A stretch of DNA of 64,000 nt, taken from contig NW_024881627.1 of the NCBI RefSeq assembly GCF_019059575.1, forward strand, positions 62,001-126,000, in the 5' to 3' direction. A program made the translations under genes and the position numbers. This stretch comes from Amphibalanus amphitrite (taxonomy: Eukaryota > Arthropoda > Thecostraca > Balanomorpha > Balanidae). The notes below the pieces were generated by a model, which did not search any database, had not been told where the DNA came from, and worked only from the letters and a program-made list of their open reading frames with translations. Within the stretch, counting starts at the first letter, position 1, and each line of letters begins with the position of its first letter. Below are positions 1 to 47,310 of this stretch, in pieces.

Positions 1-450
1 CCAGGTATGTTGGTGCAGTCCTGGTGGTATCCTATCGCCAAGCCCTCAACAAGTGTTTACCCATCATATAGTTGATGAAACCCAATATTACATAGTGAAT
101 CCAATAATTGCTGCAGCACCAATAGACATGTCGTTTAACATCCTGTTGAGTGTTGGTTACATACAGGTATCTGTTTTCTAACTCATTTGTTCCGTCTCCC
201 ACCAGCCTGCACGCCTCGCGGGCGACTTCGGTGGCGGTGCTTGTCAGCTGCAGGCGACAACAGGGCAAGCCTGCGGCCAGAGTACGTCGGCTGCCGCTGC
301 TGGCCGCTGTCCAGAGGCGGCCGGTGGGTCACATCCGTTGGGACCAGAGTCTGCTGGGAGCGCCGTCAGCCAGGTATGTTGGTGCAGTCCTGGAGGTATC
401 CTATCGCCAAGCCCTCAACAAGTGTTTACGCATCATATGTGTAGTTGAAG
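1..450 (+). repeat. Array 1 of the ~360 bp exon-cassette repeat (left end cut by window)
   Basis: The window opens on the last four bases of one cassette, followed by its GTATGT donor. A 201-nt spacer follows, then one complete 168-nt cassette at 206-373 with its own GTATGT donor at 374. The spacer ends with a CTAAC branch-point-like sequence, a pyrimidine stretch and CACCAG directly before 206. Sequence stays array-like to about 450 and then diverges. The array probably continues to the left of the window. It lies upstream of gene A in the same orientation, as array 2 lies upstream of copy B. Confidence 0.9.
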
Positions 451-593
451 GAACCCAATAGTGGATACTCAATATGGTATCCTGTAAGCATTCTCAGAAA
501 GTGCCATTGTTTAACCTTAGTAAGGTTGTGGTACAATTTCTGTTTGTGATGCTCCTTCTAAGAAGGGATATTTTAAAAAGTCATGCAATTTTA

Positions 594-1632
594 AAATCAC
601 CCGTGCCCTGCTGGGAGGGGGGATGTTTAAACACCCCCTCCCTCCTGTGGTTTTTCGCAATTATCTCAAAACGCCGCTGTTTTTGGCACACCTTATCATG
701 CATCGATTCTACACAAGTTGTGGAAATTTTAGCCCGAGGTCATTCAAGGTCAGGTCACCAGGTCAGATCAAGTGACCTCACTACATAAAAATATTCAATG
801 TCTGCCAAAGCTACACCGAGTGACGATGGCTTTGAAACTTTCAGAAATTGATAAGAGTAACATTATGTACAAAATGTGTATCTTGGAATTTTGATATCGA
901 TGACCTAAGGTCACGTCAATTTTGCTACATCCCCATTACAATAAGTCATGGGAGAAAACTGAAATGCGCCTCTTTTGGACGAAAGCCATTATAAACACTC
1001 CCAAACACTGAATTACAAGTAACTTAGACACAATGACGTGAAAATGGTGTCTGTGACCCCTGTTTATGCCCTTGAGGTCATCTCAGGTCACGAATGGCAT
1101 CAAACAGTTTTTTTCGCGAATAACTTTTGATATATGCAGCATTAGAGCGATGAAAATACCTTAGATGTGTTCAGCTCGACGATACGGATCGACTGACATG
1201 CTACATGACCCTTACTGGTCAGGTCATGACCTTAAGGTCAGAATTTCAAGTTGACTTTTCAAGGTCAAATTATAGGTCATTCGATGCGTCTTGAGAGAAA
1301 CGCGATTGTGGTGAAAGTAAGCTCGTGCAAGGCTTGAGTCAAAAGTTATTGAAAAACTGTTTCAGAAAATAATCGGCTATTTTGGCAGTTTTTGCCCCCT
1401 GCAGGTTAAACCGTTGACGTTAGGTCAAATCCGAGAGAATTACTCAGAAAGGGAGTTATAGGGATATCGAATGCGCTTTTCTGCGGCGCTGTAGTTCTAT
1501 TGGTTCCAGAGTTTTGCGTTGGCTTCTTGGAAATTGTCGACATTCGACCTGAAAATGGGCGAAATTTTGCCTTGAATGACCTCGGATTACCTGACCTTTG
1601 ACCTGACCAAAAAATGACCCAAGTGATTTTTG
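594..1632 (+). mobile_element. piggyBac-type MITE, truncated at its right end (family 1)
   Basis: The sequence from the GC-rich left end (a CCCTGCTGG-type motif, then a G-run/C-run palindrome around 615-645) to about 1632 is homologous to the complete copies at 35768-36969 (opposite orientation) and 51674-52859 (same orientation). It shares their AGGTCA-rich interior. The right terminal inverted repeat is missing: similarity stops inside the subterminal region. It has no coding capacity, so it is a non-autonomous DNA element. Confidence 0.75.
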
Positions 1633-2199
1633 AATGTACATACAAAACAATAACAAATATGAAGAATTCAGACACTTCTCAGACCAACAAAGGTCAGACA
1701 CTTCTCAGACCAACAAAAGGTCATCTTTTTTTTTTGCTTTTTTACCAAAAATAAAAAAGCAAAAAAAAAAAGATTCTTGGATGAAAGGCGCGTTAGATCG
1801 TAAAAATTCCCACTGTGCAGTGTGCACTGTTCAATCAAACATTCGCATTTTTTTTTTTTTTTTTTACAAATATGTCTTACTATATACGTTACAATTGGCA
1901 AAGGGGCATTGTTTAAAAACAAACTTAAGTTTTTTTTATACAAGGAATAGTCGACTACTTTTGACTCATTTTTTTTTCTTTTGCAACTAGTGCAAGAATT
2001 CAACTCTATGAGACCCTGACGTCGCGTAGCCCTCCCATGTCCGCAATCGAAGTCATCGATTTTTTTATGCGAACTGCAGATGCGACTCAGTTTGATTTGA
2101 GCGAATACCTGGCTACTTAGGCGTTTGCTTTGCGCAGTGTCCAGACCAGCCCCTTGAAGGCAGACTATGCCGCAATGTCACAGCCAGCGTCTATGACCG
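1633..2199. other. Spacer with A/T homopolymers, no gene seen
   Basis: Long A and T runs (about 1725-1770, 1850-1865 and 1970-1980) and a short direct repeat of a CAGACACTTCTCAGACCAAC-like unit near 1671-1710. I see no splice-flanked coding segment or RNA gene. Confidence 0.5.
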
Positions 2200-2425
2200 T
2201 GTAAGTTCTACATGCGTTACAATTTTTCAAACGGAGGTACAAGTTACCATTTTCTCGTTTTAATGAATTTTGAATGAAATTACTATGGGAGAGTCTTGGC
2301 ATGTTCCACTGTTTACTTCCAACAATGGCAAGTGAATGTAGGCTACTGTTATTTCAATCACTTTGTCAAATATCGTACAGGTGGGGGCGGCTTCTTTACA
2401 CCACCGGCCAAATTACCCCATCGTC
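2200..2425 (+). mobile_element. Fragment of the TA-flanked element also present at 62354-63593
   Basis: The block from AAACGGAGGTACAAG through GTGGGGGCGGC and CCGGCCAAATTACCCCA matches the right-hand ~210 bp of the complete element at 62354-63593. It stops just short of the terminal CTCTCCCCTA. The left half is absent. Confidence 0.65.
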
Positions 2426-2494
2426 CACAAGCCAATCGATTATGCATGGTTTTGGCAGTTAATTGGCATTTACAGCGTGTGTGTACGTTGTGTG

Positions 2495-3120
2495 GTTTGC
2501 CTATATAAAAATCAAAACGTCTGTACGTGTGTAACGCGTCAGTTCCCTTCGGCGGGCTGTTGCGAGGAGACGGTGCCGACTTAACTCGGCCGCTACTGGG
2601 CCGATTTTAATGAAAATTGATTCATTACGCTGTGCGTAATGCTGTCCCTCTTTACGCTGCGCGTAATGCTGTCCCTCTAGTTCACTTATATAAAAATCAA
2701 AATGTCTATGTATGTATGCATGAGACGCGTCAGTTCCCTTTGGCGGGCTGTTGCGGGGCGACGGCGGGGTCTAGGGGATGGGAACTTTGGTGCCGGGTCG
2801 GGCGCGTGCAGACATTTGTCGTATTAAACTTTGGAGGGGGTGCGCTCGGTGGTTTGCACGTGGCGGGCGCATCTCTGCGGCATTTTGGGCCGCGGCCGGC
2901 GCCGATCAGAGAGCACGCGCCTTAGGCTCAGTTTCTTCGCTTGCAAAACGGAGCGAAATAAGAGCCGGGAGGTGATTGACCTTTGACAATGAATACCGGA
3001 ACAGACCACCGCCCGCCGAGAGGAGGCGTCAAATTTATTCTTGCAATAACTCGGCCGTTACTAGACCGATTTTGATGAAACTTTATTTATTACGCTGCGC
3101 GTAATGCTGTCCCTCTAGAT
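2495..3120 (+). repeat. Degenerate direct repeat block
   Basis: A segment beginning TATATAAAAATCAAAA and running into CGTCAGTTCCCTT..GGCGGGCTGTTGCG occurs at about 2501-2570 and again at about 2688-2760. The phrase GCGTAATGCTGTCCCTCT occurs at about 2634, 2658 and 3100, and AACTCGGCCG(C/T)TACT at about 2585 and 3050. It looks like decayed mobile-element termini in the long intron or spacer before gene A. I cannot assign the family. Confidence 0.55.
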
Positions 3121-3328
3121 GTATATAATTTTCCAATCACGCCATTTTTGGTAGAAAACTCCAAAATCGTGACGTCACTTAAGGTTTCATATATAATAAT
3201 GCTAAATAGATTTCTTTGGTGCTTAAACACGCCCCCCCCCCATTCCTTAGCAATTAGCGTGTTAACCATTAACCACCCCAAGGCACGGTAAGATTCGTCC
3301 TTTTTACCAAACCTTTCTCTTATTCCAG

Positions 3329-6090
3329 GACGTGCTGGCGGCCCAGGTGGCTGAGCTTCTCAAGACTGGCGATTTACCGCAGCACTCTGTAGCTGAACTG
3401 GCCACCGCGCTAGGTGTAGCGCTGAACGGTAAACTTCTGGAAGAGTCATGTGACATGGCAGCTGGCTTCAAAGACCTCGACGCACTGAAGTCGCTGGTGC
3501 CATCAGTTTGGCTCTCCGAAAGAAACCCAGCCCTTGTTTCATTCCTGCAAAACTTGACGGCAAAGAAGGGGAAGGGCGATCGCGAAACCTCCGATTTGAG
3601 ACTTGTCCATGCGTATGAGCAACTCATTGGATGTAGGAACAAGAGATACGTTGGGCAGTGGAGTTTTAGCGAAAGTCTTGTGAAGAATTCGTTCCGTCAG
3701 AGCAAGACTGCCTGTGCCATCGATTCCGCCATTTCACCTTCCGGTTCAACTGCTTCACATGCCAACTTCCTGGCGGCCACCGCAGCTCATGCCACACAAC
3801 TTCAGGATGGTGATATAGAGGTGTGGTTCGACAACAACCAAATTGTGGGAAAAACTACACGTGTATGTGTTGGGGGAAAGGCTCTGATGAGTGGCTGCAC
3901 AATGCTGTGCTCGATTCAAACTGTCAGCGACAACTTGCAAGTGGAAGCGAGCCTGATGCCCGGTCTTCATGAAACCACCGATCCAAAAGAACTAAACACC
4001 GCCCTGGAGAAAGTGGAAGAAGAGGAGAGGGCGCTGCGAGAACTCTATCGGGCTCATCGCACCAAATTCTGGGAGAAAACTATCGAGGCGGTTTCCGCAG
4101 AACAAACTGACACACAATTCGGCGTTGAAGATTATGTTGACCGAATGGCGGCGCAGCTGGCAGCCGGCACTGCAAACACCATTTGCAAACATTGCTTGAC
4201 TGTGCAACCTGACCACTTCGATGTATGTCCCAAATGCGCGAAGCCATCGACTCCTTCAGTGGTCTTGCGGGAGGACCGCATGCACGGCGTGCCGTCTCAA
4301 CACGGCGGTCACGTTGACGTAGTTGTTGGCGAGGTGTACAAAGACATGCCCAACTCCTACGCCAATTGCAAAGCCATTCTTGCACATATTCGAATGCAAG
4401 CAAAGATTGGTGAAGAACGCCAGTGGGTGTCAGTTGGTTGTGATGGTCAGCCATACGATATTATCAGAAACCTTCTGGACCTGACCATGGTCTGTAACCA
4501 CTGCGGACTGGTGACAGATGCGGCGGACATGAACGAACACGTGTCAAAGGAACATCCGAACGACGGACAATGCTTCAGGAAGTTTTATGACTGGGTCCTG
4601 CTTCGTCCTGGTGCGGGGCACGTCGAGATGAACATCTGCAAGGCGCTCTTTCGTCTCCTCTGGCTACCCATCCTTCGACCAGTTGCACGGGTCCTGGGTT
4701 TCACGAGTGACGCTTCATTGTCATTCGTCAAGACATGTGGCAACCACCATGTCACGTGGCAAATCCTAAACATTATCCTTGAAGCCTTGTCCAAAGAGCT
4801 GGCCGTGACCTACGTCCGTCAATGTCTGGAAGCACATCTGGAGCTCAGTGCGACGGGAATGCTAGAATGGCTTGCGTCTGCTCAGAACAACAACTACGTC
4901 CTTCTCTCCAAGCTGTGTGACATCATGTTGGCGACATCTCTCATGCGGGCGGGTGTGAGGAGAAATAACAGTGAAGCAATGCTTGCTGGAAGACAGAGGG
5001 CCGCGTTGGTCTTCTTCACGGGACCCCACTACACGTATCAACGATTGATTGTTCGGGACATGATCCAGCGTCAACAGGTCCCGCCTGCAGTCAAGAGGTT
5101 CATCGAAGCCCGAACATCATACTCAACGTCAGGAGACACTACGAGAGGCGAAGGTGGCGACTTCGTTTTGGAGAACAAGAATCGCCAAACGAAATCGTGG
5201 ATCCCTCCAGGTATGCACAAAAATGATTGTCCATAATCCAACCATGTGTATGCTGAGACATTGCATATTATTGAGAATATAGTATGACGTTAAATTTTCA
5301 CGTCGTTCATTAGCTACTGTATTTGTGTGAGTGCTTCCTTTGCAGACAAATCGGCGTAAGAAATACGTTGGCAACAAAACCCACTAATTTATGTAGCTCA
5401 TCCGAAAGTGTATTCTTCCTCGAAATACCAACTCATTCCCTTGCTTTAAATGCCAGTTCTTTTAGGTAGCTCGCTCAACAGATCCTAATCTGGTGGTAGG
5501 ACGATTCACTCTGTGAAAGCTACGGAAATGTAATTTTGTTCCTAAAAGATTTTGCATGTTCCATTGCAGGCCAGCCGTCCGTTACCCAGTGGCAGGAGGC
5601 AGCCAGGTGCGGCGACCGTCTGGAGGGAGTCAAGGAAAGTGTGCTGGAACGGTGCAGTATCGGTGCGTCGACGTTCAGTGACCAGGACCTGCCGCAGGAA
5701 GCAAGTGTGGATCGGGTTCGAGCCGAAATGCGCGCTAAGGGACATCTTTCGAACCCCAGGGACGAGGTGGAGTACCTGCAAGGACTGGACGGTGATTACT
5801 TGCACCCCGACTTTGTTAACTTCGATGTCTCGGCAAAGCAGAACGTGCTGTCACTCAGGGGTGCGATGTCGGGGACGTTGGATCAGAAAATGACCAAGGT
5901 TTTCATAGTGCCAGACGATGCGTCCGCCGACAAAATGACAAAGGCTGAGCTATTTGAGCACGTAACGGCAACCATCAAATCTACATATTTGGGCGAGGAC
6001 CAAGCTATGCGCATGTCGATCTTGCGCCGTGCGAAAACAAAGTCGGACTTACTGGGCCTCTACCAAGAATACGGATGTGCACGTGAATAG
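3329..6090 (+). CDS. Gene A: uncharacterised multi-copy family protein with transposase-like D/D/E signature (5' end not in hand)
   Basis: Two coding exons: 3329-5210 (acceptor TTCCAG, donor GTATGC) and 5570-6090 (acceptor TTGCAG, stop TAG). The junction is in frame (G|GC) and together they give 800 codons, open throughout. No initiator precedes 3329: the exon opens at phase 0 after a good acceptor, so the N-terminus must come from upstream exons. Counting from the GTG at 3332, visible motifs are FDNNQ (Asp 167), a C-x2-C..C-x2-C zinc knuckle (CKHC..CPKC), CDGQPY (Asp 371), a CNHC..H..H finger-like motif, and GHVEMN (Glu 432). The arrangement of FDN, CDG and GHxEMN resembles the acidic triad of RNase-H-fold transposases, but that is inference. 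Motifs such as MRAGVRRNN and KTKSDLLGLYQEY match, from memory, a patchily distributed, unannotated family in cnidarians and other invertebrates. It may be a host gene or a transposon-borne gene. Function unknown. Confidence 0.75.
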
Positions 6091-9000
6091 GCCCTCGCGT
6101 GAAACGGTGTCCATCCCGGCGGCGGTGCTTGTCAGCTGCAGGCGACCGCAGTCATGCAAGCCTGCGGCCAGACGTCGGCTGCCGCTGCTGGCCGCTGTCC
6201 AGCGGCAGCCGGTGGGTCACATCCGTTGGGACCAGAGTCTGCTGGGAGCGCCGTCAGCCAGGTATGTTGGTGCAGTCCTGGTGGTATCCTATCGCCAAGC
6301 CCTCAACAAGTGTTTACCCATCATATAGTTGATGAAACCCAATATTACATAGTGAATCCAATAATTGCTGCAGCACCAATAGACATGTCGTTTAACATCC
6401 TGTTGAGTGTTGGTTACATACAGCTATCTGTTTTCTAACTCATTTGTTCCGTCTCCCACCAGCCTGCACGCCTCGCGGACGACTTCGGTGGCGGTGCTTG
6501 TCAGCTGCAGGCGACAACAGGGCAAGCCTGCGGCCAGAGTACGTCGGCTGCCGTTGCTGGCCGCTGTCCAGCGGCAGCCGGTGGGTCACATCCGACGGGA
6601 CCAGAGTCTGCTGGGAGCGCCGTCAGCCAGGTATGTTGGTGCAGTCCTGGAGGTATCCTATCGCCAAGCCCTCAACAAGTGTTTACCCATCATATAGTTG
6701 ATGAAACCCAATATTACATATTGAATCCAATAATTGCTGCAGCACCAATAGTCATGTCGTTTAACATCCTGTTGAGTGTTGGTTACATACAGGTATCTGT
6801 TTTCTAACTCATTTGTTCCGTCTCCCACCAGCCCGCACGCCTCGCGGACGACTTCGGTGGCGGTGCTTGTCAGCTGCCGGCGACAACAGGGCAAGCCTGC
6901 GGCCAGAGTACGTCGGCTGCCGCTGCTGGCCGCTGTCCAGCGGCAGCCGGTGGGTCACATCCGACGGGACCAGAGTCTGCTGGGAGCGCCGTCAGCCAGG
7001 TATGTTGGTGCAGTCCTGGAGGTATCCTATCGCCAAGCCCTCAACAAGTGTTTACCCATCGTATAGTTGATGAAACCCAATATTACATAGTGGATACAAT
7101 AATTGCTGCAGCACCAATAGACATGTCGTTTAACATCCTGGTGGTTACATACAGCTATCTGTTTTCTAACTCATTTGTTCCGTCTCCCACCAGCCTGCAC
7201 GCCTCGCGGACGACTTCGGTGGCGGTGCTTGTCAGCTGCCGGCGACAACAGGGCAAGCCTGCGGCCAGAGTACGTCGGCTGCCGCTGCTGGCCGCTGTCC
7301 AGCGGCAGCCGGTGGGTCACATCCGTTGGGATCAGAGTCTGCTGGGAGCGCCGTCAGCCAGGTATGTTGGTGCAGTCCTGGTGGTATCCTATCGCCAAGC
7401 CCTCAACAAGTGTTTACCCATCATATAGTTGATGAAACCCAATATTACATAGTGGATACAATAATTGCTGCAGCACCAATAGACATGTCGTTTAACATCC
7501 TGTTGGTTATATACAGCTATCTGTTTTCTAACTCATTTGTTCCGTCTCCCACCAGCCCGCACGCCTCGCGGACGACTTCGGTGGCGGTGCTTGTCAGCTG
7601 CCGGCGACAACAGGGCAAGCCTGCGGCCAGAGTACGTCGGCTGCCGCTGCTGGCCGCTGTCCAGCGGCAGCCGGTGGGTCACATCCGTTGGGATCAGAGT
7701 CTGCTGGGAGCGCCGTCAGCCAGGTATGTTGGTGCAGTCCTGGTGGTATCCTATCGCCAAGCCCTCAACAAGTGTTTACCCATCATATAGTTGATGAAAC
7801 CCAATATTACATAGTGGATACAATAATCGCTGCAGCACCAATGTTAAACATCCTGTTGGTTACATACAGCTATCTGTTTTCTAACTCATTTGTTCCGTCT
7901 CCCACCAGCCCGCACGCCTCGCGGACGACTTCGGTGGCGGTGCTTGTCAGCTGCCGGCGACAACAGGGCAAGCCTGCGGCCAGAGTACGTCGGCTGCCGC
8001 TGCTGGCCGCTGTCCAGCGGCAGCCGGTGGGTCACATCCGACGGGACCAGAGTCTGCTGGGAGCGCCGTCAGCCAGGTATGTTGGTGCAGTCCTGGAGGT
8101 ATCCTATCGCCAAGCCCTCAACAAGTGTTTACCCATCGTATAGTTGATGAAACCCAATATTACATAGTGGATACAATAATTGCTGCAGCACCAATACACA
8201 TGTCGTTTAACATCCTGGTGGTTACATACAGCTATCTGTTTTCTAACTCATTTGTTCCGTCTCCCACCAGCCTGCACGCCTCGCGGACGACGTCGGTGGC
8301 GGTGCTTGTCAGCTGCCGGCGACAACAGGGCAAGCCTGCGGCCAGAGTACGTCGGCTGCCGCTGCTGGCCGCTGTCCAGCGGCAGCCGGTGGGTCACATC
8401 CGTTGGGATCAGAGTCTGCTGGGAGCGCCGTCAGCCAGGTATGTTGGTGCAGTCCTGGTGGTATCCTATCGCCAAGCCCTCAACAAGTGTTTACCCATCA
8501 TATAGTTGATGAAACCCAATATTACATAGTGGATACAATAATTGCTGCAGCACCAATAGACATGTCGTTTAACATCCTGTTGGTTATATACAGCTATCTG
8601 TTTTCTAACTCATTTGTTCCGTCTCCCACCAGCCCGCACGCCTCGCGGGCGACTTCGGTGGCGGTGCTTGTCAGCTGCCGGCGACAACAGGGCAAGCCTG
8701 CGGCCAGAGTACGTCGGCTGCCGCTGCTGGCCGCTGTCCAGCGGCAGCCGGTGGGTCACATCCGACGGGACCAGAGTCTGCTGGGAGCGCCGTCAGCCAG
8801 GTATGTTGGTGCAGTCCTGGAGGTATCCTATCGCCAAGCCCTCAACAAGTGTTTACCCATCATATAGTTGATGAAGCCCAATATTACATAGTGGATACAA
8901 TAATCGCTGCAGCACCAATGTTAAACATCCTGTTGGTTACATACAGCTATCTGTTTTCTAACTCATTTGTTCCGTCTCCCACCAGCCCGCACGCCTCGCG

Positions 9001-11400
9001 GGCGACTTCGGTGGCGGTGCTTGTCAGCTGCAGGCGACAACAGGGCAAGCCTGCGGCCAGAGTACGTCGGCTGCCGCTGCTGGCCGCTGTCCAGCGCCAG
9101 CCGGTGGGTCACATCCGTTGGGATCAGAGTCTGCTGGGAGCGCCGTCAGCCAGGTATGTTGGTGCAGTCCTGGAGGTATCCTATCGCCAAGCCCTCAACA
9201 AGTGTTTACCCATCATATAGTTGATGAAACCCAATATTACATAGTGAATCCAATAATTGCTGCAGCACCAAAAGACATGTCGTTTAACATCCTGTTGAGT
9301 GTTGGTTACATACAGCTATCTGCTTTCTAACTCATTTGTTCCGTCTCCCACCAGCCTGCACGCCTCGCGGACGACTTCGGTGGCGGTGCTTGTCAGCTGC
9401 AGGCGACAACAGGGCAAGCCTGCGGCCAGAGTACGTCGGCTGCCGCTGCTGGCCGCTGTCCAGCGGCAGCCGGTGGGTCACATCCGACGGGACCAGAGTC
9501 TGCTGGGAGCGCCGTCAGCCAGGTATGTTGGTGCAGTCCTGGAGGTATCCTATCGCCAAGCCCTCAACAAGTGTTTACCCATCATATAGTTGATGAAGCC
9601 CAATATTACATATTGAATCCAATAATTGCTGCAGCACCAATAGACATGTCGTTTAACATCCTGTTGAGTGTTGGTTACATACAGCTATCTGTTTTCTAAC
9701 TCATTTGTTCCGTCTCCCACCAGCCCGCACGCCTCGCGGACGACTTCGGTGGCGGTGCTTGTCAGCTGCCGGCGACAACAGGGCAAGCCTGCGGCCAGAG
9801 TACGTCGGCTGCCGCTGCTGGCCGCTGTCCAGCGGCGGCCGGTGGGTCACATCCGTTGGGACCAGAGTCTGCTGGGAGCGCCGTCAGCCAGGTATGTTGG
9901 TGCAGTCCTGGAGGTATCCTATCGCCAAGCCCTCAACAAGTGTTTACCCATCATATAGTTGATGAAGCCCAATATTACATAGTGAATCCAATAATTGCTG
10001 CAGCACCAATAGACATGTCGTTTAACATCCTGTTGGTTACATACAGCTATCTGTTTTCTAACTCATTTGTTCCGTCTCCCACCAGCCTGCACGCCTCGCG
10101 GACGACTTCGGTGGCGGTGCTTGTCAGCTGCAGGCGACAACAGGGCAAGCCTGCGGCCAGAGTACGTCGGCTGCCGCTGCTGGCCGCTGTCCAGCGGCAG
10201 CCGGTGGGTCACATCCGTTGGGACCAGAGTCTGCTGGGAGCGCCGTCAGCCAGGTATGTTGGTGCAGTCCTGGAGGTATCCTATCGCCAAGCCCTCAACA
10301 AGTGTTTACCCATCATATAGTTGATGAAACCCAATATTACATAGTGGATACAATAATTGCTGCAGCACCAATAGACATGTCGTTTAACATCCTGGTGGTT
10401 ACATACAGCTATCTGTTTTCTAACTCATTTGTTCCGTCTCCCACCAGCCTGCACGCCTCGCGGGCGACTTCGGTGGCGGTGCTTGTCAGCTGCAGGCGAC
10501 AACAGGGCAAGCCTGCGGCCAGAGTACGTCGGCTGCCGCTGCTGGCCGCTGTCCAGCGGCAGCCGGTGGGTCACATCCGTTGGGATCAGAGTCTGCTGGG
10601 AGCGCCGTCAGCCAGGTATGTTGGTGCAGTCCTGGAGGTATCCTATCGCTAAGCCCTCAACAAGTGTTAACCCATCATATAGTTGATGAAACCCAATACT
10701 GCATAGTGGATACAATAATCGCTGCAGCACCAATGTTAAACATCCTGTTGGTTACATACAGCTATCTGTTTTCTAACTCATTTATTCTGTCTCCCACCAG
10801 CCCGCACGCCTCGCGGGCGACTTCGGTGGCGGTGCTTGTCAGCTGCAGGCGACAACAGGGCAAGCCTGCGGCCAGAGCACGTCGGCTGCCGCTGCTGGCC
10901 GCTGTCCAGAGGCAGCCGGTGGGTCACATCCGACGGGACCAGAGTCTGCTGGGAGCGCCGTCAGCCAGGTATGTTGGTGCAGTCCTGGAGGTGTCCTATC
11001 GCCAAGCCCTCAACAAGTGTTTACCCATCATATAGTTGATGAAACCCAATATTACATAGTGAATCCAATAATCGCTGCAGCACCAAATAGACATGTCGTT
11101 TAACATCCTGTTGGAACATACAGCTATCTGTTTTCTAACTCATTTGTTCCGTCTCCCACCAGCCCGCACGCCTCGCGGGCGACTTCGGTGGCGGTGCTTG
11201 TCAGCTGGAGGCGACAACAGGGCAAGCCTGCGGCCAGAGTACGTCGGCTGCCGCTGCTGGCCGCTGTCCAGAGGCAGCCGGTGGGTCACATCCGTTGGGA
11301 CCAGAGTCTGCTGGGAGCGCCGTCAGCCAGGTATGTTGGTGCAGTCCTGGAGGTATCCTATCGCCAAGCCCTCAACAAGTGTTTACCCATCATTTGTGTA
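6091..11400 (+). repeat. Array 2: fifteen tandem ~353-369 bp units, each with a 168-nt splice-flanked cassette
   Basis: The first unit is fused to gene A's terminal exon and ends at a GTATGT donor after 6261. Fourteen complete cassettes follow: 6463-6630, 6832-6999, 7194-7361, 7556-7723, 7909-8076, 8271-8438, 8633-8800, 8986-9153, 9355-9522, 9724-9891, 10086-10253, 10448-10615, 10801-10968 and 11163-11330. Each is exactly 168 nt (56 codons), starts after CCCACCAG and ends GCCAG before GTATGTTGG. The spacers come in three sizes only (201, 194 and 185 nt) and carry TTCTAACTCA then a pyrimidine tract before the acceptor, as an intron would. All three forward frames are open through the cassettes. 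Frame 1 encodes an Ala/Gly/Ser-rich 56-residue repeat without Met, phase 0 at both edges. Similarity ends just after 11400. Confidence 0.92.
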
Positions 11401-11426
11401 GCTGAACTACCTATCGTGTTTTTCTT

Positions 11427-12030
11427 TCGACCCCCTCTGTAAACGTCTCTGTGAATACAGCACGAGATTTGCGAGATGAATTGCTTGGAAATCTGGCTAG
11501 CGCACATCGCTTTTCACAGATGATCAACGTGATCAAAATTGTTTTCATTTCACTCCATTTCCCCGTCTCGTAATGAGTGTTTGTCTACATTTACAATCCA
11601 AAAGTGATGCTCGACTTGTCGTAAATTGTAACTGAACTCATCCATCAATCGCACGGTGTTGACCATTATGCTACTTGATCGGTGTTCAGAGGACATATTG
11701 AAAATATTTTTTATCTCTTCAATGAAATGTGCACCAACCAGTTTTGTTAGTCATTCTCTTAGCAAATCTCGTGCTGTGTTCAAAAAGATGTTTACAATGA
11801 GGGTCGAACTTGAGAAAAAGAACTGTAAGTTATAAATCGCACGGCGTGCACCATAACGCTATATGTGCCATTGGTGGTCAAAACTGGATTCGAAAGTTGA
11901 AACATATCATCCACACCTCCAATACAATTTGCGCTAACCAGTCTTCTGAGCAATTTAGCCAGCGGTTCTCGTGCTGTATTCAAAAACAGGTTGACTGTAA
12001 GGGTCGAACTTGGAAAAAAAGAACTATAGA
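11427..12030. repeat. Degenerate direct and inverted repeats between array 2 and copy B
   Basis: The block ending in TCTCGTGCTGT.TTCAAAAA followed by GAGGGTCGAACTTG occurs at about 11765-11815 and again at about 11980-12020. An inverted version lies at about 11427-11475. ATCGCACGG.GTGCACCAT-like sequence recurs at about 11650 and 11830. It is probably a decayed MITE cluster. No coding segment was seen from here to 12600. Confidence 0.5.
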
Positions 12031-12653
12031 ACAACGATCCCTTGCGTTGCTATTCTTCCAAAGGGCTTTCAGAGTATGTTAACATTGCCCCCCGGCGTGT
12101 TTGGCCACATCTGCCAGTTTTTGCGTGTGTGAAGAAAACCGCGGCTCGCAGCGCCGCTGGGCGCTGATGACCACTGTAGTCCGGTCGCCCAACAACCCCA
12201 ATTCATCATCATCATCATCGCAGCGCTGAAAATCTTGGTATTGCTTGTGAGACATTAATTGCGCATCGTGTGTGAAACGTTTGATCGCAGGTCGGATATG
12301 GTCAGGTATGGTCGCATATGGTCAGGCCATTCTTTCAGTAAACATCCCAGAAGTTAAGCGTTGTAGTCTAGTGGTTCGCGACTTATGCGCCGACTTGTGT
12401 GAAATCGAGGACACAAATTAATGATAATTTTACTTTTGTGACTCCCAAGCTTAGCGATGACCTCATTGAAAAATGACCTGAATGATCATGAAAATGTGAT
12501 ATTGATCTTTTTTTCCTTTTCACCTTTTCCGTTGCGAAAAGGTGGGACCATTTACCCCCCCCCCCCGCCCCTCAGCAACTAGCGTGTTAACCATTAACCA
12601 CCCCAAGGCACGGTAAGCTTCGTCCTTTTTACCAAACCTTTCTCTTGTTCCAG

Positions 12654-15600
12654 GACGTGCCAGCGGCCCTGGTGGCTGAGCTTCTCAAGACTGGCGATTT
12701 ACCGCAGCACTCTGTAGCTGAACTGGCCACCGCGCTAGGTGTAGCGCTGAACGGTAAACTTCTGGAAGAGTCGTGTGACATGGCAGCTGGCTTCAAAGAC
12801 CTCGACGCACTGAAGTCGCTGGTGCCATCAGTTTGGCTCTCCGAAAGAAACCCAGCCCTTGTTTCATTCCTGCAAAACTTGACGGCCAAGAAGGTGAGGG
12901 CGATCGCGAAACCTCCGATTTGAGACTTGTCAATGCGTATGGGCAACTCATTGGATGTAGGAACAAGAGATACGTTGGGCAGTGGAGTTTTAGCGAAAGT
13001 CTTGTGAAGAATTCGTTCCGTCAGAGCAAGACTGCCTGTGCCATCGATTCCGCCATTTCACCTTCCGGTTCAACTGCTTCACATGCCAACTTCCTGGCGG
13101 CCACCGCAGCTCATGCCACACAACTTCAGGATGGTGATATAGAGGTGTGGTTCGACAACAACCAAATTGTGGGAAAAACTACACGTGTATGTGTTGGGGG
13201 AAAGGCTCTGATGAGTGGCTGCACAATGCTGTGCTCGATTCAAACTGTCAGCGACAACTTGCAAGTGGAAGCGAGCCTGATGCCCGGTCTTCATGAAACC
13301 ACCGATCCAAAAGAACTAAACACCGCCCTGGAGAAAGTGGAAGAAGAGGAGAGGGCTCTGCGATAACTCTATCGGGCTCATCGCACCAAATTCTGGGAGA
13401 AAAATATCGAGGCGGTTTCCGCAGAACAAACTGACACACAATTTGGCGTTGAAGATTATGTTGACCGTATGGCGGCGCAGCTGACAGCCGGCACTGCAAA
13501 CACCATTTGCAAACATTGCTGTGCAACCTGACCACTTCGATGTAGGTCCCAAATGCGCGAAGCCATCGACTCCTTCAGTGGTCTTGCGGGAGGACCGCAT
13601 GCACGGCATGCCGTCTCAACACGGCGGTCACGTTGACGTAGTTGTTGGCGAGGTATACAAAGAAAAACAATATACATACGATATACGAAGATATACAACC
13701 CTTACATTAATGGCAAGGGAGTTCTGGATCACATTCGAACCTAAACTCCGCTCTAGAGAAAGTGGAAGAAGAGGAGAGGGCGCTTCAAGAACTCTATCGA
13801 GCTCATCGCACCAAAGTCTGGGAGAAAACTATCGAGGCGGTTTCCGCAGAACACACTGACACACAACTTAGCGTTGAAGATTATATTGACAGTATGGCGG
13901 CGCAGCTGACAGCCGGCACTGCAAACACCATTTGCAAACATTGCTGTGCAACCTGACCACTTCGATGTAGGTCCCAAATGCGCAAAGCTGTCGACTCCTT
14001 CAGTGGTCTTGCGGGAGGACCGCATGCACGGCATGCCGTCTCAACACGGCGGTCACGTTGACGTAGTTGTTGGCGAGGTGTACAAAGAAAAACAATATAC
14101 ATACGATATACGAAGATATACAACCCTTACATCAATGGCAAGTCGGGTGTTCTGGAGCATATTCGAACCTAAACTCCGCTCTAGAGAAAGTGGAAGAAGA
14201 GGAGAGGGCGCTTCAAGAACTCTATCGAGCTCATCGCACCAAAGTCTGGGAGAAAACTATCGAGGCGGTTTCCGCAGAACACACTGACACACAACTTAGC
14301 GTTGAAGATTATATTGACAGTATGGCGGCGCAGCTGACAGCCGGCACTGCAAACACCATTTGCAAACATTGCTGTACAACCTGACCACTTCGATGTAGGT
14401 CCCAAATGCGCAAAGCTGTCGACTCCTTCAGTGGTCTTGCGGGAGGACCGCATGCACGGCATGCCGTCTCAACACGGCGGTCACGTTGACGTAGTTGTTG
14501 GCGAGGTGTACAAAGAAAAACAATATACATACGATATACGAAGATATATAACCCTTACACCAATGGCAGGGGAGTTCTGGAGCACATTCGAACCTAAACT
14601 CCACTCTAGAGAAAGTGGAAGAAGAGGGGAGGGCGCTTCAAGAACTCTATCGAGCTCATCGCACCAAAGTCTGGAAGAAAACTATCGAGGCGGTTTCCGC
14701 AGAACGAACAGACACACAATTCGGCGTTGAAGATTATGTTGACAGTATGGCGGCGCAGCTGACAGCCGGCACTGCAAACACCATTTGCAAACATTGCTGT
14801 GCAACCTGACCACTTCGATGTAGCTCCCAAGTGCGGAAAGCCATCGACTCCTTCAGTGGTCTTGCGGGAGGACCGCATGCACGGCATGCCGTCTCAACAC
14901 GGCGGTCACGTTGACGTAGTTGTTGGCGAGGTATACAAAGAAAAACAATATACATACGATATACGAAGATATACAACCCTTACACCAATTACGAGGGAGT
15001 TCTTGAGCTCATTGGAATTCAACCAGAATTGGTAGTAAACGCACAGGTCGCACTTTGTTGTGATGGTTAGCCATACGATATTATCAGAAACCTTCTGGAC
15101 CTGACCATGGTCTGTAACCACTGCGGACTGGTGACAGAATATGCGGCGGACATGAACGAACACGTGTCAAAGGAACATCCGAACGACGGACAATGCTTCA
15201 GGAAGTTTTATGACTGGGTCCTGCTTCGTCCTGGTGCGGGGCACGTCGAGATGAACATCTGCAAGGCGCTCTTTCGTCTCCTCTGGCTACCCATCCTTCG
15301 ACCAGTTGCACGGGTCCTGGGTTTCACGAGTGACGCTTCATTGTCATTCGTCAAGACATGTGGCAACCACCATGTCACGTGGCAAATCCTAAACATTATC
15401 CTTGAAGCCTTGTCCAAAGAGCTGGCCGTGACCTACGTCCGTCAATGTCTGGAAGCACATCTGGAGCTCAGTGCGACGGGAATGCTAGAATGGCTTGCGT
15501 CTGCTCAGAACAACAACTACGTCCTTCTCTCCAAGCTGTGTGACATCATGTTGGCGACATCTCTCATGCGGGCGGGTGTGAGGAGAAATAACAGTGAAGC

Positions 15601-16713
15601 AATGCTTGCTGGAAGACAGAGGGCCGCGTTGGTCTTCTTCACGGGACCCCACTACACGTATCAACGATTGATTGTTCGGGACATGATCCAGCGTCAACAG
15701 GTCCCGCCTGCAGTCAAGAGGTTCATCGAAGCCCGAACATCATACTCAACGTCAGGAGACACTACGAGAGGCGAAGGTGGCGACTTCGTTTTGGAGAACA
15801 AGAATCGCCAAACGAAATCGTGGATCCCTACAGGTATGCACAAAAATGATTGTCCATAATCCAACCATGTGTATGCTGAGACATTGCATATTATTGGGAA
15901 TATAGTATGACGTTAAATTTTCACGTCGTTCATTAACTACTGTATTTGTTTGAGTGCTTCCTTTGCAGACAAATCGGCGTAAGAAATACGTTGGCAACAA
16001 AACCCACTAATTTATGTAGCTCATCCGAAAGTGTATTCTTCCTCGAAATACCAATTCATTCCCTTGCTTTAAATGCCAGTTCTTTTAGGTAGCTCGCTCA
16101 ACAGATCCTAATCTGGTGGTAGGACGATTCACTCTGTGAAAGCTACGGAAATGCAATTTTGTTCCTAAAAGATTTTGCATGTTCCATTGCAGGCCAGCCG
16201 TCCGTTACCCAGTGGCAGGAGGCAGCCAGGTGCGGCGACCGTCTGGAGGGAGTCAAGGAAAGTGTGCTGGAACGGTGCAGTATCGGTGCGTCGACGTTCA
16301 GTGACCAGGACCTGCCGCAGGAAGCAAGTGTGGATCGGGTTCGAGCCGAAATGCGCGCTAAGGGACATCTTTCGAACCCCAGGGACGAGGTGGAGTTCCT
16401 GCAAGGACTGGACGGTGATTACTTGCACCCCGACTTTGTTAACTTCGATGTCTCGGCAAAGCAGAACGTGCTGTCATTCAGGGGTGCGATGTCGGGGACG
16501 TTGGATCAGAAAATGACCAAGGTTTTCATAGTGTCAGACGATGCGTCCGCCGACAAAATGACAAAGGCTGAGCTATTTGAGCACGTAACGGCAACCATCA
16601 AATCTACATATTTGGGAGACTGAACAAGCTATGCGCATTTCGATCTTGCGCCGTGCGAAAACAAAGTCAGACTTACTGGGCCTCTACCAAGAATACGGAT
16701 GTGCACGTGAATA
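12654..16713 (+). pseudogene. Copy B: broken paralogue of gene A
   Basis: The long exon is re-found from the acceptor before 12654 to the donor after 15833, and the terminal exon from 16193 to the ancestral stop at 16711-16713. Identity to gene A is very high, including the ~360 bp intron between the two exons, and similarity begins before the exon, at about 12570 (matching about 3240). So this is a recent segmental duplicate. The reading frame is lost: there is a one-base loss early in the long exon, a premature stop near 13363, a small deletion between the two halves of the zinc-knuckle motif, and a shifted end of the terminal exon near 16617. Between about 13320 and 15030 a segment holding the zinc-knuckle region is present four times. 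The part after 15060 stays almost identical to gene A. It cannot encode the gene A protein. Whether it is transcribed is unknown. Confidence 0.85.
13320..15030 (+). repeat. Fourfold ~426 bp tandem duplication inside copy B
   Basis: Four tandem units spaced about 425-428 bp (starting near 13325, 13750, 14178 and 14603) each run from the TALEKVEEEERAL-coding stretch to the HVDVVVGEVYK-coding stretch. Each is followed by an A/T-rich linker beginning AAAAACAATATACATACGAT that gene A lacks. All four share the same small deletion next to the zinc-knuckle codons, so the deletion came before the amplification. The linker ends with a stretch resembling the sequence before the TALEK codons, which could have seeded unequal exchange. 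Confidence 0.85.
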
Positions 16714-17619
16714 GGCCCTCGCGTGAAACGGTGTCCATCCCGGCGGCGGTGCTTGTCAGCTGCAGGCGACCGCAGTCATGCAAGCCTGCGGCCAGACGTC
16801 GGCTGCCGCTGCTGGCCGCTGTCCAGCCGCGGCAGCCGGTGGGTCACATCCGACGGGACCAGAGTCTGCTGGGAGCGCCGTCAGCCAGGTATGTTGGTGT
16901 AGTCCTGGAGGTATCCTATCGCCAAGCCGTCAACAAGTGTTTACCCATCATATAGTTGATGAAACCCAATATTACATAGTGAATCCAATAATTGCTGCAG
17001 CACCAATAGACATGCCGTTTAACATCCTGTTGGTTATATACAGCTATCTGTTTTCTAACTCATTTGTTCCGTCTCCCACCAGCCTGCACGCCTCGCGGGC
17101 GACTTCGGTGGCGGTGCTTGTCAGCTGCAGGCGACAACAGGGCAAGCCTGCGGCCAGAGTACGTCGGCTGCCGCTGCTGGCCGCTGTCCAGCGGCAGCCG
17201 GTGGGTCACATCCGACGGGACCAGAGTCTGCTGGGAGCGCCGTCAGCCAGGTATGTTGGTGCAGTCCTGGAGGTATCCTATCGCTAAGCCCTCAACAAGT
17301 GTTAACCCATCATATAGTTGATGAAACCCAATATTACATAGTGAATCCAATAATTGCTGCAGCACCAATAGACATGTCGTTTAACATCCTGTTGAGTGTT
17401 GGTTACATACAGGTATCTGTTTTCTAACTCATTTGTTCCGTCTCCCACCAGCCTGCACGCCTCGCGGGCGACTTCGGTGGCGGTGCTTGTCAGCTGCAGG
17501 CGACAACAGGGCAAGCCTGCGGCCAGAGTACGTCGGCTGCCGCTGCTGGCCGCTGTCCAGCGGCAGCCGGTGGGTCACATCCGACGGGACCAGAGTCTGC
17601 TGGGAGCGCCGTCGGCCAG
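16714..17619 (+). repeat. Array 3: fused unit plus two 168-nt cassettes
   Basis: As after gene A, the terminal exon of copy B runs directly into a diverged cassette ending at a donor after 16888. Complete 168-nt cassettes follow at 17083-17250 and 17452-17619, with spacers of 194 and 201 nt. The last cassette ends GTCGGCCAG before GTAAAG, after which similarity to the array is lost. It is the downstream counterpart of array 2, much shorter. Confidence 0.9.
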
Positions 17620-17682
17620 GTAAAGCACGCTGTTTGGCATTGTTTAAATGTTTAAATGCTAAGTGGCCTGCTCAACAAGAAG

Positions 17683-17832
17683 TTTTTAGGGTAGATGTAA
17701 ATGTGATCAACTCGAGGGTGCTGAAAGTTTTGTCTCGCAATCGGCCGCTTTTTACTCTAGTTACGCGAAATAGCGAGGGTGTGGAGTCCGTTCGGCCCCT
17801 CCCCCCCCCCCCCCCATAGGGGCGAGGGCTAA
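17683..17832 (-). mobile_element. End fragment of a piggyBac-type MITE (family 3)
   Basis: On the minus strand the sequence reads TTAGCCCTCGCCCC, a long G-run and GGCCGAACGGACTCC, then CTCGCTATTTCGCGTAA and AGCGGCCGATTGCGA. This parallels the left end of the complete element at 54793-55712. Only about 150 bp remains. Confidence 0.6.
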
Positions 17833-18209
17833 GATTCCAAATTATTGGTACCAAATTGCAAGTGGAGGTAAAGAACTTATGACGTCATAGAAACAGCGGA
17901 GGCCCTTAAAATAAAAATGAAAGCATAATATCTTCAAACGTGGTGAAAGTTTTTCGGCGAAATTTGGTAGACATTCGTTTTTGCTCTTTGTGAACCAAGG
18001 TCTTTATCGAAGTCGTTATTTTTTTAAAGCTGTGAGAGGGCCCTCGTGAAAAGATAACCACGTTCGTGCTGATAATTTTTCATCTTCCCGGCAGACCCAT
18101 GCATAATTATATATATTTTTGTTTAGGGTGATCGTCGGGCCGTAAAAACTCTTGATTTGCGCTTGTATCAGCTGAAGCCACGGAACTGCTATTCCAGTTC
18201 AAAACCCCA

Positions 18210-18360
18210 TGTTAAAAGTGAACTATTTCCTTTAACAGATTTTGTATGTTTCATTGCAGACCAGCCGTCAGTCACCTAGTGGCGGAAGGCAGCGAGGTGC
18301 GGCGACCGTCTGGACTCCGGAGGAAGTGGAGGACAGTGTTGAAACAGTGTAGTCCTCAAA
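18210..18360 (+). pseudogene. Relic third copy of the family terminal exon
   Basis: TTTAACAGATTTTGTATG, TTTCATTGCAG and CCAGCCGTCAGTCACC, followed by a GCGGCGACCGTCTGGA stretch, reproduce the intron end and first ~70 nt of the terminal exon of genes A and B, with several changes. Similarity fades by about 18350, immediately before the MITE at 18386. It marks an older third unit of the duplicated locus. Confidence 0.7.
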
Positions 18361-18385
18361 CGAGTGTTGTGGGTTGATAGGTTTG

Positions 18386-18604
18386 GTACGGGGACCCGCA
18401 GTTGCTACTGTACAGCGACCCTGAGTAAATTGTCTCAGCACCCTCACAGTGAACAAAGATAAGCTGTCCGAGGGCACGCACAGAAAACCTCAGCTGCTCT
18501 TGTATAGGGACCGGCAGTCGATATCAATATTATCGGTTGTTACTGGACAGGACAGAGGGCTAGAGTTGGGGTTCGTGTACAGTAGCAACTGCGGGTCCCC
18601 GTAC
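18386..18604. mobile_element. MITE with 28-bp terminal inverted repeats, copy 1
   Basis: The left end starts GTACGGGGACCCGCAGTTGC and continues to 28 bases that are exactly inverted at the right end (..GCGGGTCCCCGTAC). The 219-bp element has no coding capacity. A second copy of 223 bp lies at 32017-32239. The terminal GTAC makes the exact border and any target duplication ambiguous. Confidence 0.85.
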
Positions 18605-20537
18605 GGCATCATCACTGATTTGTTACCGATGTTCCTCATACAAGCAGTTCGCGTAGAATTAAGGAACCAGGGCCCAATCTGATAAAATGTCGTACTATTC
18701 TATTTACGGTATTTGGTAACAGTCACAGTGATACCAGTGCTGACAAAGGTTTATCTGAGTCTACGAAATGATTCTTCAGACCGTCAAATTACGATGGCCT
18801 GAAATGCGTGAAAACCATTTTGCATTTCATAGTCGTTTTCTGCAGCTGAACTTCAGCCAGTGCTGCCATATCCATTCCACGGCGTTTATAAGATAAGATA
18901 TATAAGATCGCAAATGAGGTTAATGTCCCTTATTTGCGGAGTCATCAGTGTATTTCTCCAAAGTGATGTGTGAGGCTGCGTTGAGTGTAATCAGCAGCAG
19001 CTTTGCTTAATGTGAAGAATCAGACATGTCATGGGCTCAAACGAAGGGGGAATTTTACGATACAGATTTTTTCCTTGAATTGCGTCATCGCCGCTCGAGT
19101 ACTTCAGTTGCTTCATATGCGGTGACCGTTTAGGCGTATGGCCTGTCAACTATCTGCTGCGATGATATGCAACAATATCCGTGTGCGATAATCATGCTAT
19201 GAGGAGCAATATATCTGTTGGAAGCTCGGACGTCATGCTGGTGGGCATATGTTGGTCAATTTTATATATGGCCACCATGTTGGCCAATGCTACAAATGGC
19301 CCCGATCAGATTACTGGGTGCTCATTGTTATTAATGAGTAATGGCGCATGCAGTGGGCATTGGTGGAGAATTGTGCCGAACTGTGGGTGCTTGGGCGTAG
19401 CAAATCCGCCGCCGCCCTATCGGTGACCTTGACCTCCGCCGTCTGTTTCGGCTCCAGAGCCAAACCGGCGTAGAATTGGGAGAGCTCGAGCACCCACAGT
19501 TCAGCACAATTCTTCACCTATGTTGATGTGCGGTGGGGGATGAACACTGCCCGGCGGACCGGCTGTGCTCACTTCCAACAGGCGTCTTGGATCACCATGA
19601 CGAAGGGTATGCCTAAGCGACGCCAGTGTGGGTATGAAATACAAAAGAAATCAAAAACGAATCAGTGGTGAGACTGCTACAGGGCAGTAAAAAGGTAGGC
19701 ACGCGTCTGGCTGCGATTTACTTGTTGCCCCAGGATAACTTATCGGCTGCGGCTTAAAGCGAACGATAACTGATCTGGTGGCTTCACCATCGCCGGATCT
19801 AATAGTTTTCCACATGCGCCCCGGCCGTGGGGAAGGGTTGGACTCGGTACGCCCCCCCCCCCCCTCTCGCCGTCTCGATCTCGATAGAGCCTCTTGAAAG
19901 AAAACGAGCTCTTCTGGCACTGAGAGCATTGCGAAGTTGTAGCATTTTAGGTGCACAGGCTTACTAACGACGAACAGGTCAGTGACCTGACCTGACCTAA
20001 AAATGTGGTTGGTGTCAAAAGATCGGTAGCGGCGGAACACCTTCAATTAAAGGGGGGCACTGCCGACTTTTGGTCCCATTCTTTCCATGCAACGCCCAAT
20101 AGGGCTAATGTAAGGGCAGAAGACCATTGTCATGTCATTTGGCTTCTGCTGTTCGCACTCCCACCGCATCCATATTTTGATCAGCCAGCTGTTTGCCGAT
20201 CAATTTATGGAATGGCCAGCTGATTGCCAGTCAAAAAATGATTTGTCGCTGGTGCCTAGAACCTGCAGAAAAGACATTTTTTGATCGCCATTTTTAAGTA
20301 AATTCGCCGAGTTCCGTTAAGTATTCACTCACAGTCTTCGTTCCCAATGGAAAATGGAACCTAGTTCTCTCCGATGGGTGGACGCGATGCCGCAAGTATT
20401 GTCTATTTTCCCGTTAATCACCCGTAATAGCGATGGCTGCATTTATGCCCATATATGGTCATACGAAATCCATTTTTTGACCAATCCATTTTTTGACGTT
20501 CGCCTCGTAGTTTCCCCAACTGCCATTGCGTTTCAAC
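18605..20537. other. Intergenic spacer, no gene seen
   Basis: No splice-flanked coding segment or RNA gene is visible. It contains the small foldback at 19362-19518 and a C-run/GGCC fragment near 19825-19900 that resembles the end of a MITE. Confidence 0.5.
19362..19518. mobile_element. Small foldback (MITE-like)
   Basis: GGTGGAGAATTGTGCCGAAC..GTGGGTGCT at the left is inverted at the right (..AGCACCCACAGTTCAGCACA, then ATTCTTCACC) with two or three mismatches over about 35 bp. The whole is 157 bp and has no open frame of note. Confidence 0.65.
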
Positions 20538-46048: not shown

Positions 46049-46317
46049 CTCTCCCGCTATCCTCCACATCACATTGTGTGCATAGTGACAGGCGGCTGGG
46101 CGACCTCCGCCCGCCCATGTGTCGAGTCATTGTCTGATAGTGGGACTGAATCAGCCTGAGGCCTCCCGCAGCCAGTCGCCACTCGGGGCACGGACAAAGT
46201 GCGCCCGTCCGGCCTCACCTGACAGCTCCCTGCTCTGCCCTGCGGCTGCAGACGCGCTACCACTGAGTGCAGTGTCGGCTTCAGCGGACCAGACCGGGTG
46301 ATCACCAATACTCAGCC

Positions 46318-47310
46318 ATGGCGACCACCGTACAGCTCAACAGCGGCCACAAAATGCCGCTGCTCGGCCTCGGCTGCTGGCGGGCCGTCGGAGACGAGAT
46401 CTCCACCGCCGTGGAGACCGCCCTGCTGGCCGGGTACCGGCACATCGACACCGCTGAGCTCTACCACAACGAGGCCGACGTAGGACGCGGCATCAAGGCC
46501 GCCATCGCCACCGGCAAGCTCACCAGGAGCGACCTGTTCGTGGTGACCAAGCTGCCGAGCGTGGCGATGCGGCCCGAGCGCGTGGAGCCGAGCCTGCGCC
46601 GCTCGCTGGCCGCGCTCGGGCTGGACTCGGTGGATCTGTACCTGGTACACAGCCCGGTGGGGGCGCTGGAGCGCAGCGAGCTGACCTCCCCGCCACCAGA
46701 GGACGGACGGATGCCGCTCCATCACGGCACTGACCTGATCGCCGTCTGGAAGGAAATGGAACGCATGGTCTCCCTGCGCTTGGCAAAGTCCATCGGCGTG
46801 TCCAACTACAACGAGAGGCAGCTGCTGAAGACAGTGGCGATTGCTACCATCCCACCGGCCGTGCTGCAGGTCGAGTGTCACGTCTACTTTCAGCAGCTGA
46901 AGATGCGCGAGGTCTGCAAGAAGCACAACATCGCCATCACGGCCTATGCGCCTCTGGCCTCTCCCGGCAGGAAGGTGCTCTATGAAAAGCGCGGCGTCAA
47001 GATCGAGCTGCCCGACCTGCTCAACAATCCCGTGGTACGTCTGGTGGCCGAGAAACACAAACGGACGGCGGCCCAGGTGCTGCTCAGGTTCCTGGTCCAG
47101 CAGGACATCATCGTCATCCCCAAGTCAACCAACGCTGGTCGCATCAAAGAGAACGGCGACCTATTCAGCTTCAAGCTGGATGAGGTGGACATGGGGGCTC
47201 TGCGCCTGTTGGACCAGGGAGAGGCCGGCAGAAGCTTCAAGTTTTACGATAGTTTTCCGGGAGTTGACGAGCATCCCGAATTTCCATTCCCGGTTAAGTC
47301 AACGGCGTGA
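46318..47310 (+). CDS. Aldo-keto reductase, intronless, catalytically complete
   Basis: A single uninterrupted 330-codon frame begins at an ATG in strong context (AGCCATGG); the more upstream in-frame ATG at 46267 is weaker and adds a non-conserved extension. The (beta/alpha)8 barrel signature is full length for the family (about 315-330 aa). The tetrad is present: Asp 44 and Tyr 49 in HIDTAELYHNE, Lys 78 in VTKLP and His 111 in YLVHSP. The NADPH-binding IPKSTNAGRIKEN segment has the Lys and Arg that contact the 2'-phosphate. ECHVYFQQ and AYAPLASPG supply the Gln and the nicotinamide-stacking Tyr. It should be a cytosolic NADPH-dependent carbonyl or sugar reductase of the AKR1 type; the substrate cannot be told. 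Lack of introns beside intron-rich neighbours suggests origin by retroposition or lineage-specific intron loss. Confidence 0.9.
   Translation: MATTVQLNSGHKMPLLGLGCWRAVGDEISTAVETALLAGYRHIDTAELYHNEADVGRGIKAAIATGKLTRSDLFVVTKLPSVAMRPERVEPSLRRSLAALGLDSVDLYLVHSPVGALERSELTSPPPEDGRMPLHHGTDLIAVWKEMERMVSLRLAKSIGVSNYNERQLLKTVAIATIPPAVLQVECHVYFQQLKMREVCKKHNIAITAYAPLASPGRKVLYEKRGVKIELPDLLNNPVVRLVAEKHKRTAAQVLLRFLVQQDIIVIPKSTNAGRIKENGDLFSFKLDEVDMGALRLLDQGEAGRSFKFYDSFPGVDEHPEFPFPVKSTA

Follow-up and report, generated by a model that had tools for sequence, protein, structure and literature searches.

Tandem copies of a probable linker exon in a transposase-like gene of a 28.7-kb transposon from Amphibalanus amphitrite

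Organization of the locus

The window analysed here is a 64,000-nucleotide stretch of the Amphibalanus amphitrite genome (assembly GCF_019059575.1, contig NW_024881627.1, positions 62,001 to 126,000, forward strand), the first 20.5 kb of which form the right-hand part of a large DNA transposon with terminal inverted repeats (TIRs). The element harbors two tandem copies, A and B, of a transposase-like gene and three arrays of a 168-nt exon-like cassette, located before, between and behind the main exons of the two genes. Judging from phase, splice signals and a related gene, these cassettes are probably tandem copies of one genuine linker exon of the transposase-like gene, a reading to which we assign a probability of about 0.72. 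The features of the locus are listed below in window coordinates, unless contig C130, to which the window belongs, is named.

1..20522, + strand: TIR DNA transposon, 28,740 bp in full (C130:53783-82522), with its right-hand 20.5 kb in the window; identified by a TIR pair, CCAT flanks and shorter copies with the same ends
C130:59896-60111, left of the window and upstream of array 1: first exon, 72 aa, starting with ATG and ending at phase 0 before GT
206..373, + strand: sixth and last cassette of array 1, 168 nt, phase 0, GTATGT donor
3329..5210, + strand: main exon of gene A, intact, 627 codons plus 1 base, starting at phase 0; open frame with a sub-threshold Pfam DUF6589 match (E 0.0038), longest relatives 44-58% identical, third-position bias against C861
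5570..6090, + strand: last exon of gene A, stop codon TAG at 6088-6090; its junction ...KSWIPP/GQPSVTQW is contiguous coding sequence in the relatives C293, C1102 and C1083
6091..6261, + strand: cassette-like stretch running on from the last exon of gene A, with a GTATGT donor and without an acceptor; same junction in C9 (L010) and at 16715
6463..11330, + strand: array 2 with 14 cassettes, each 168 nt long, separated by spacers of 185, 194 or 201 nt
12654..15833, + strand: main exon of gene B, broken by frame shifts, stops and a fourfold 425-bp repeat
16193..16714, + strand: last exon of gene B, frame-shifted near 16620
16715..16888, + strand: second cassette-like stretch, running on from the last exon of gene B, with a GTATGT donor and without an acceptor
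17083..17619, + strand: array 3, two cassettes (17083-17250 and 17452-17619), the last with a GTAAAG donor
18261..18391, + strand: remnant of a third last exon, within the 3' part of the element; C175 and the short C131 copy contain it too, and C165 a short piece of it
20482..20522, - strand: right TIR, 41 bp, 95% identical to the left end; CCAT duplication at 20523-20526

The element is bounded by inverted ends, CAGTTGGGG..., with the left TIR at position 1783 of L009, the sequence covering the left part of the locus. The left end, CAGTTGGGGAAACTACGAGG, recurs inverted at window position 20522, and a CCAT/CCAT target duplication flanks both element ends. The left part of the locus is a block that is repeated across the genome. 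Twenty-one TIR pairs were counted elsewhere, leaving out C982 as irregular, and exact 4-bp duplications were observed in all 10 for which both ends were fetched. Thus, a 4-bp target duplication is found in 11/11 elements read; its sequence varies and is never TTAA. Three shorter copies on C4, C131 and C211 (3.3, 3.3 and 5.3 kb) share the left end at 96% identity and match parts of the right 1.9 kb at 88-97%; all three are without bases 72-417 of the right-end query, and C211 carries extra DNA in its right end. The middle of these copies was read in C131 alone, where about 150 bp separate the first 1.0 kb from the last 2.4 kb. The left end is also matched at 85% by C9.

Over 626 codons, the main exon of gene A differs from that of C861 at 210 first, 151 second and 391 third positions; the corresponding figures against C293, over 579 codons, are 278, 193 and 379. 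This excess at third positions indicates purifying selection on the main exon. In the two longest alignments, genes A and B have an identity of 95-97%. The 425-bp unit within its main exon, repeated four times with stops at 13316-15017, represents a second, independent tandem amplification in the element. No first exon belonging to gene B was found, the first-exon search giving high identity at this locus and on C526 only. The interval from the main exon of gene A to the right end of the element contains a single AATAAA, at 17910 (window 1-20600, + strand), so that gene A is without a nearby canonical poly(A) signal.

Cassette number, splice signals and variation

L009 and the window together contain 22 complete cassettes, every one of them exactly 168 nt long. 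Seventeen lie wholly inside the window (1 + 14 + 2), as an earlier reading made from the sequence alone had counted. The remaining five start left of the window, at C130:60380-62004, with the fifth reaching window base 4; array 1 comprises six cassettes and is mostly located outside the window. Spacers of 201, 194 and 185 nt, given in that same reading, were retrieved within the window, together with spacers of 190 and 193 nt to its left. Over 6117-11393, Tandem Repeats Finder reports a period of 362 with 14.6 copies and 95% matches, far beyond chance.

An acceptor, ...CCCACCAG, was found in 22/22 cassettes, in keeping with the sequence-only reading, although the acceptor itself served to find the cassettes and only the sequence upstream of it is informative. 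The branch-point-like TTCTAAC, likewise described before, lies at most 40 nt upstream of the acceptor in 21/22 cassettes, including 17/17 in the window, the exception being outside the window. A GTATGT donor had been attributed to each cassette; it is present in 21/22 (16/17 in the window), and the cassette at 17452-17619 has GTAAAG, a donor that is also found in the relatives on C9, C175 and C165. Frame 1 is open in 22/22 cassettes. Upon shuffling of one cassette (n = 5000), frame 1 was open in 35% of the sequences and all three frames in 3%, which makes the open frame alone weak evidence. Frame 1 is nevertheless the fitting frame, because phase 0 is found both at the end of the first exon, which a GT follows, and at the start of the main exon (position 3329). 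The earlier description of symmetric, phase-0 cassettes is thereby upheld, and their appearance as real phase-0 exons is supported. A genome-wide DNA search, in which match counts are lower bounds, located arrays at this locus only and single diverged relatives on C9, C175 and C165, among the matches listed.

The 22 cassettes differ by 2.5% on average and display 14 variable columns, 6, 5 and 3 of them at codon positions 1, 2 and 3 of frame 1. In this frame, 12 changes are nonsynonymous and 3 synonymous, where 29% synonymous changes are expected. Frame 1 of the cassettes is thus without sign of codon-level selection, and the comparison of codon positions suggested with the sequence-only reading gave no constraint. 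Diversity is 0.025 in the exons and 0.031 in the spacers, with 14/168 variable columns in the former and 27/194 in the latter (Fisher P 0.10). Five indel events, counted by hand on an alignment of the 22 cassettes and their spacers, were found among the arrays; all five are in spacers and none in exons (P about 0.04), and 1/5 is a multiple of 3. The resulting argument from the constant exon length is weak. Between loci, a comparison of the cassette, the terminal copies, C9, C175 and C165 showed that 6/7 indels in the cassette have a length divisible by 3 (P about 0.007 at a chance of 1/3 each); this count was also made by hand and leaves out the first 30 nt on account of their unclear homology and irregular gaps.

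In array 2, the best ungapped repeat distance is 1077 bp, or three units (0.635), barely above one unit of 362 bp (0.625). Units 6832/7909 and 7194/8271, each pair separated by 1077 bp, show a single difference in 362 bases, and the next best pair shows 4 in 369. Whole units of array 2 were thus recently duplicated blockwise, which is the pattern expected from unequal exchange. The uniformity of the cassettes can be attributed to this recent block duplication, and the earlier suggestion that recent amplification could explain it is borne out by the two pairs. The size of the array could in part be an effect of the assembly.

Relatives of the gene and position of the linker

Searches with the main exon matched 66 genome pieces, genes A and B included, several of which are long and open (70/88 candidates scored). 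The first exon has a match at 90% on C526 and 35 weaker matches elsewhere, 6 of which have E < 0.001. Eight of these 35 were fetched. A similar TIR was found approximately 1 kb before the match in six of them (L055, L058, L059, L060, L061 and L062), and none with the search pattern used in L056 and L057. The C526 match itself (C526:320680-320895, L054) is accompanied by no main-exon match on C526 among the scored candidates. No relatives in viral contigs were confirmed.

The relative on C1083 comprises, in a single open frame, an N-terminal Cys domain, a Ser/Thr/Glu/Ala-rich linker of about 74 aa, delimited by hand, and the first 256 residues of the main region. The clearest part common to the first exon of gene A and the C1083 N-terminus is a CxxC near the end. 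The cassette has an A/G/S/T/P/Q/E content of 79%, the C1083 linker 70% and the main exon 42%. The presence of a linker at the corresponding place in C1083 suggests that the cassette is probably a duplicated linker exon, read in frame 1.

Pfam profile searches gave DUF6589 (PF20231) scores of 16.4, 18.1 and 22.1 bits, all below the cut-off of 27, with the best E value (7e-5) in the C1083 relative. The resemblance to this family is a weak profile match around a conserved D...E region, and every score is sub-threshold. Residues D372, D377 and E433, and C389, C392, H404 and H409 between them, are invariant in gene A and four relatives. From the conserved acidic residues and the context of the element, we infer that the protein is a putative DDE transposase.

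The element resembles class II TIR DNA transposons in its inverted ends, its target duplication of fixed length, its shorter copies with the same ends and its transposase-like gene; it differs in its length of 28.7 kb, its two tandem gene copies and its 22 complete, splice-competent exon copies. Target sites of piggyBac and Kolobok are TTAA, whereas 0/11 duplications here have this sequence. The AcademX nuclease is an XPG nuclease, and no XPG match was obtained in the 10 protein pieces scanned (the four parts of gene A, relatives, and two further stretches of the element that look like exons). AcademX elements combine a nuclease with a 3-4-bp target duplication (PMC10045372), which the 4-bp duplications found here resemble. 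A duplication of 8 bp is given for Zisupton and a Dileera family of the Kyakuja-Dileera-Zisupton (KDZ) group (PMC12730594), unlike the 4 bp read in 11/11 elements. The same source describes C(2)C and H(3-4)H between the second D and the last E in the CMCT superclass (CACTA/Mirage/Chapaev/Transib; PMC12730594), a pattern that is reminiscent of the invariant C-x2-C and H-x4-H between an invariant D and E in gene A and its four relatives, if these are the catalytic residues. In contrast to CMCT elements, the element ends in CAGTT, not CAC, is flanked by a 4-bp duplication and has no Pfam match to such transposases.

Genes with tandem exon cassettes, such as Dscam, likewise carry arrays of whole exons that have splice signals of their own and are located upstream of a constant part. 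Such 5' cassettes are described for chelicerate Dscam (PMC4835542). The present cassettes differ in their average divergence of only 2.5%, in their location inside a transposon and in that no choice among them is known. Among the papers searched, nothing relevant was found on such arrays, on exon arrays in transposase genes or on DUF6589, which is not proof of novelty.

Several further sequences were observed in and around the element. A short (about 730 bp) element family, represented by C80:44194-44920, has the TIR of the 28.7-kb element, and 7/7 members read at both ends have exact 4-bp duplications. Window 18667-18894 (about 228 bp) lies inside the right end of the element, has some 35 listed matches at 88-97% identity, is absent from the three shorter copies and is probably a nested repeat. 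The same probably holds for a stretch of about 1 kb at window 599-1629, which lies downstream of array 1 and upstream of the gene A main exon and is 76-77% identical to sequence near the C293 and C861 relatives. In the C9 relative (L010, minus strand, about 4880 to 1860), an interruption near CCCTTTAA consists of DNA with inverted ends GGGACTGTCCCACC and is likely due to a nested TTAA-type transposon. L009 4338-6504 (C130:56338-58504) contains additional exon-like open stretches of the element, one (MALYVDEEGK...) with a donor and one with a Cys/His-rich end, which we take to be PHD-like; these stretches gave no Pfam zinc-finger match. Outside the element, the open frames at window 46267-47310 and 59698-61287 are presumably aldo-keto-reductase-like.

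Origin of the arrays and competing explanations

Under the linker-exon reading, transcripts starting at the first exon would splice through array 1 and insert n x 56 flexible, Ala/Gly/Ser-rich residues, up to 336 for six copies, between the N-terminal Cys domain and the catalytic-like body. Skipping of a cassette would keep the frame, and copy number would then be free to drift at little cost. In genes A and B and in C9, the cassette-like stretch behind the stop codon has the same junction, which makes a first tandem duplication of the gene, with its breakpoint inside a cassette, the simplest origin. Unequal exchange between cassettes before and behind the gene may then have given rise to arrays 1, 2 and 3 and to genes A and B. 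In C175 and C165, the order is main-exon remnants, cassette, GTAAAG and last-exon fragment, a layout that would be expected if a second, older copy of the gene had lost a main exon by deletion.

Several observations weigh against this account. In C175 and C165, the cassette lies behind main-exon remnants instead of in front of them, which leaves the original exon order uncertain, and C165 carries an 11-base, frame-breaking gap, the sole exception among the seven between-locus indels. Codon-position differences are flat between the cassette consensus and C9 (6/4/7) or C175 (8/8/9), providing no positive coding sign in frame 1. In frame 2, 9/15 changes are synonymous where 30% are expected, which would favour another frame. 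Frame 2 fits neither the first nor the main exon and was dropped as the coding frame; its synonymous excess, found among three frames examined, stays as counter-evidence that we cannot explain except by chance. The C1083 gene is frame-shifted inside the main region, after residue 256, and its N-terminus is only 26% identical to the first exon over 70 aa (E 0.75). Finally, the transposase nature of the protein is deduced from sub-threshold Pfam matches and conserved acidic residues, and a single-sequence AlphaFold2 model of the main exon reached a mean predicted local distance difference test (pLDDT) score of 36.

The cassettes might instead be a non-coding satellite, a unit of 3' untranslated sequence behind the last exon that spread as a minisatellite with its splice signals inherited but unused. 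Cassette-like sequence does follow the stop codon of both genes and of C9, and both the flat codon-position differences and the 35% of shuffles that are open in frame 1 at the same GC content agree with such an origin. It is nevertheless unlikely, since acceptor, branch-point-like sequence and donor are all conserved, the phases fit on both sides of array 1, indels between loci are mostly multiples of 3 whereas those in spacers mostly are not, and C1083 has a linker at that very place. An even smaller chance is left to a host gene or domesticated transposase with a private exon array, flanked by TIRs from other, nested elements. Strong purifying selection on the main exon against its paralogues and the abundance of nested repeats at the locus would suit this view; the same two ends, however, border the single shorter elements on C4, C131 and C211, one of them linking 1.0 kb from the left end with 2.4 kb from the right end, the flanking CCAT copies match, and weak relatives of the first exon lie about 1 kb inside similar TIRs in six of the eight fetched. 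It was dropped once a TIR pair, matching CCAT flanks and shorter elements with identical borders had come to light; the gene is not an ordinary host gene but the transposase-like gene of the 28.7-kb transposon.

That reading had also proposed an N-terminal repeat domain or a reservoir of alternative exons rather than a neutral satellite. The first part agrees with the linker position in C1083, and the second finds no codon-level selection in frame 1. A selected reservoir, in which selection maintains the cassettes as exons of alternative use or variable copy number and the N-terminal linker is adjusted through alternative splicing or array length, would account for symmetric phase-0 exons, splice signals conserved in 22 copies, a frame 1 open throughout and the lack of exon indels among five events. 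It is about as improbable as the satellite, as frame 1 has no synonymous excess and the cassettes are near-identical through recent block duplications instead of being diversified. Moreover, the array is present in one transposon copy only, among the matches listed, and the largest array serves a broken gene. Array 2 sits after the stop codon of the intact gene A and before the broken gene B; on this arrangement only array 1 can feed gene A, and array 2, in the interval 6091..11400 of the sequence-only reading, has no intact gene downstream to serve.

We thus favour tandem copies of one linker exon in a recently amplified, probably near-neutral array, the uniform length of which would result from recency plus, at most, mild frame-keeping selection. 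Nothing in these results favours a regulated exon reservoir over recency. A bolder version has the transposon convert its transposase's linker exon into a splice-competent array of variable copy number. Array size or exon skipping would then tune, in frame and by 56 residues per copy, the distance between the DNA-binding-like N-terminus and the catalytic-like body, possibly as a self-regulation of transposition; this is speculative and we consider it doubtful.

The locus provides a case of whole exons multiplying fast, together with their splice signals, in a mobile element, and of tandem exon duplication before selection sorts the copies. It also calls for caution, as exon-like tandem arrays in raw genome sequence can belong to a transposon gene. 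If the protein linker is indeed lengthened by the array, this element would constitute a natural test of the effect of linker length on a transposase.

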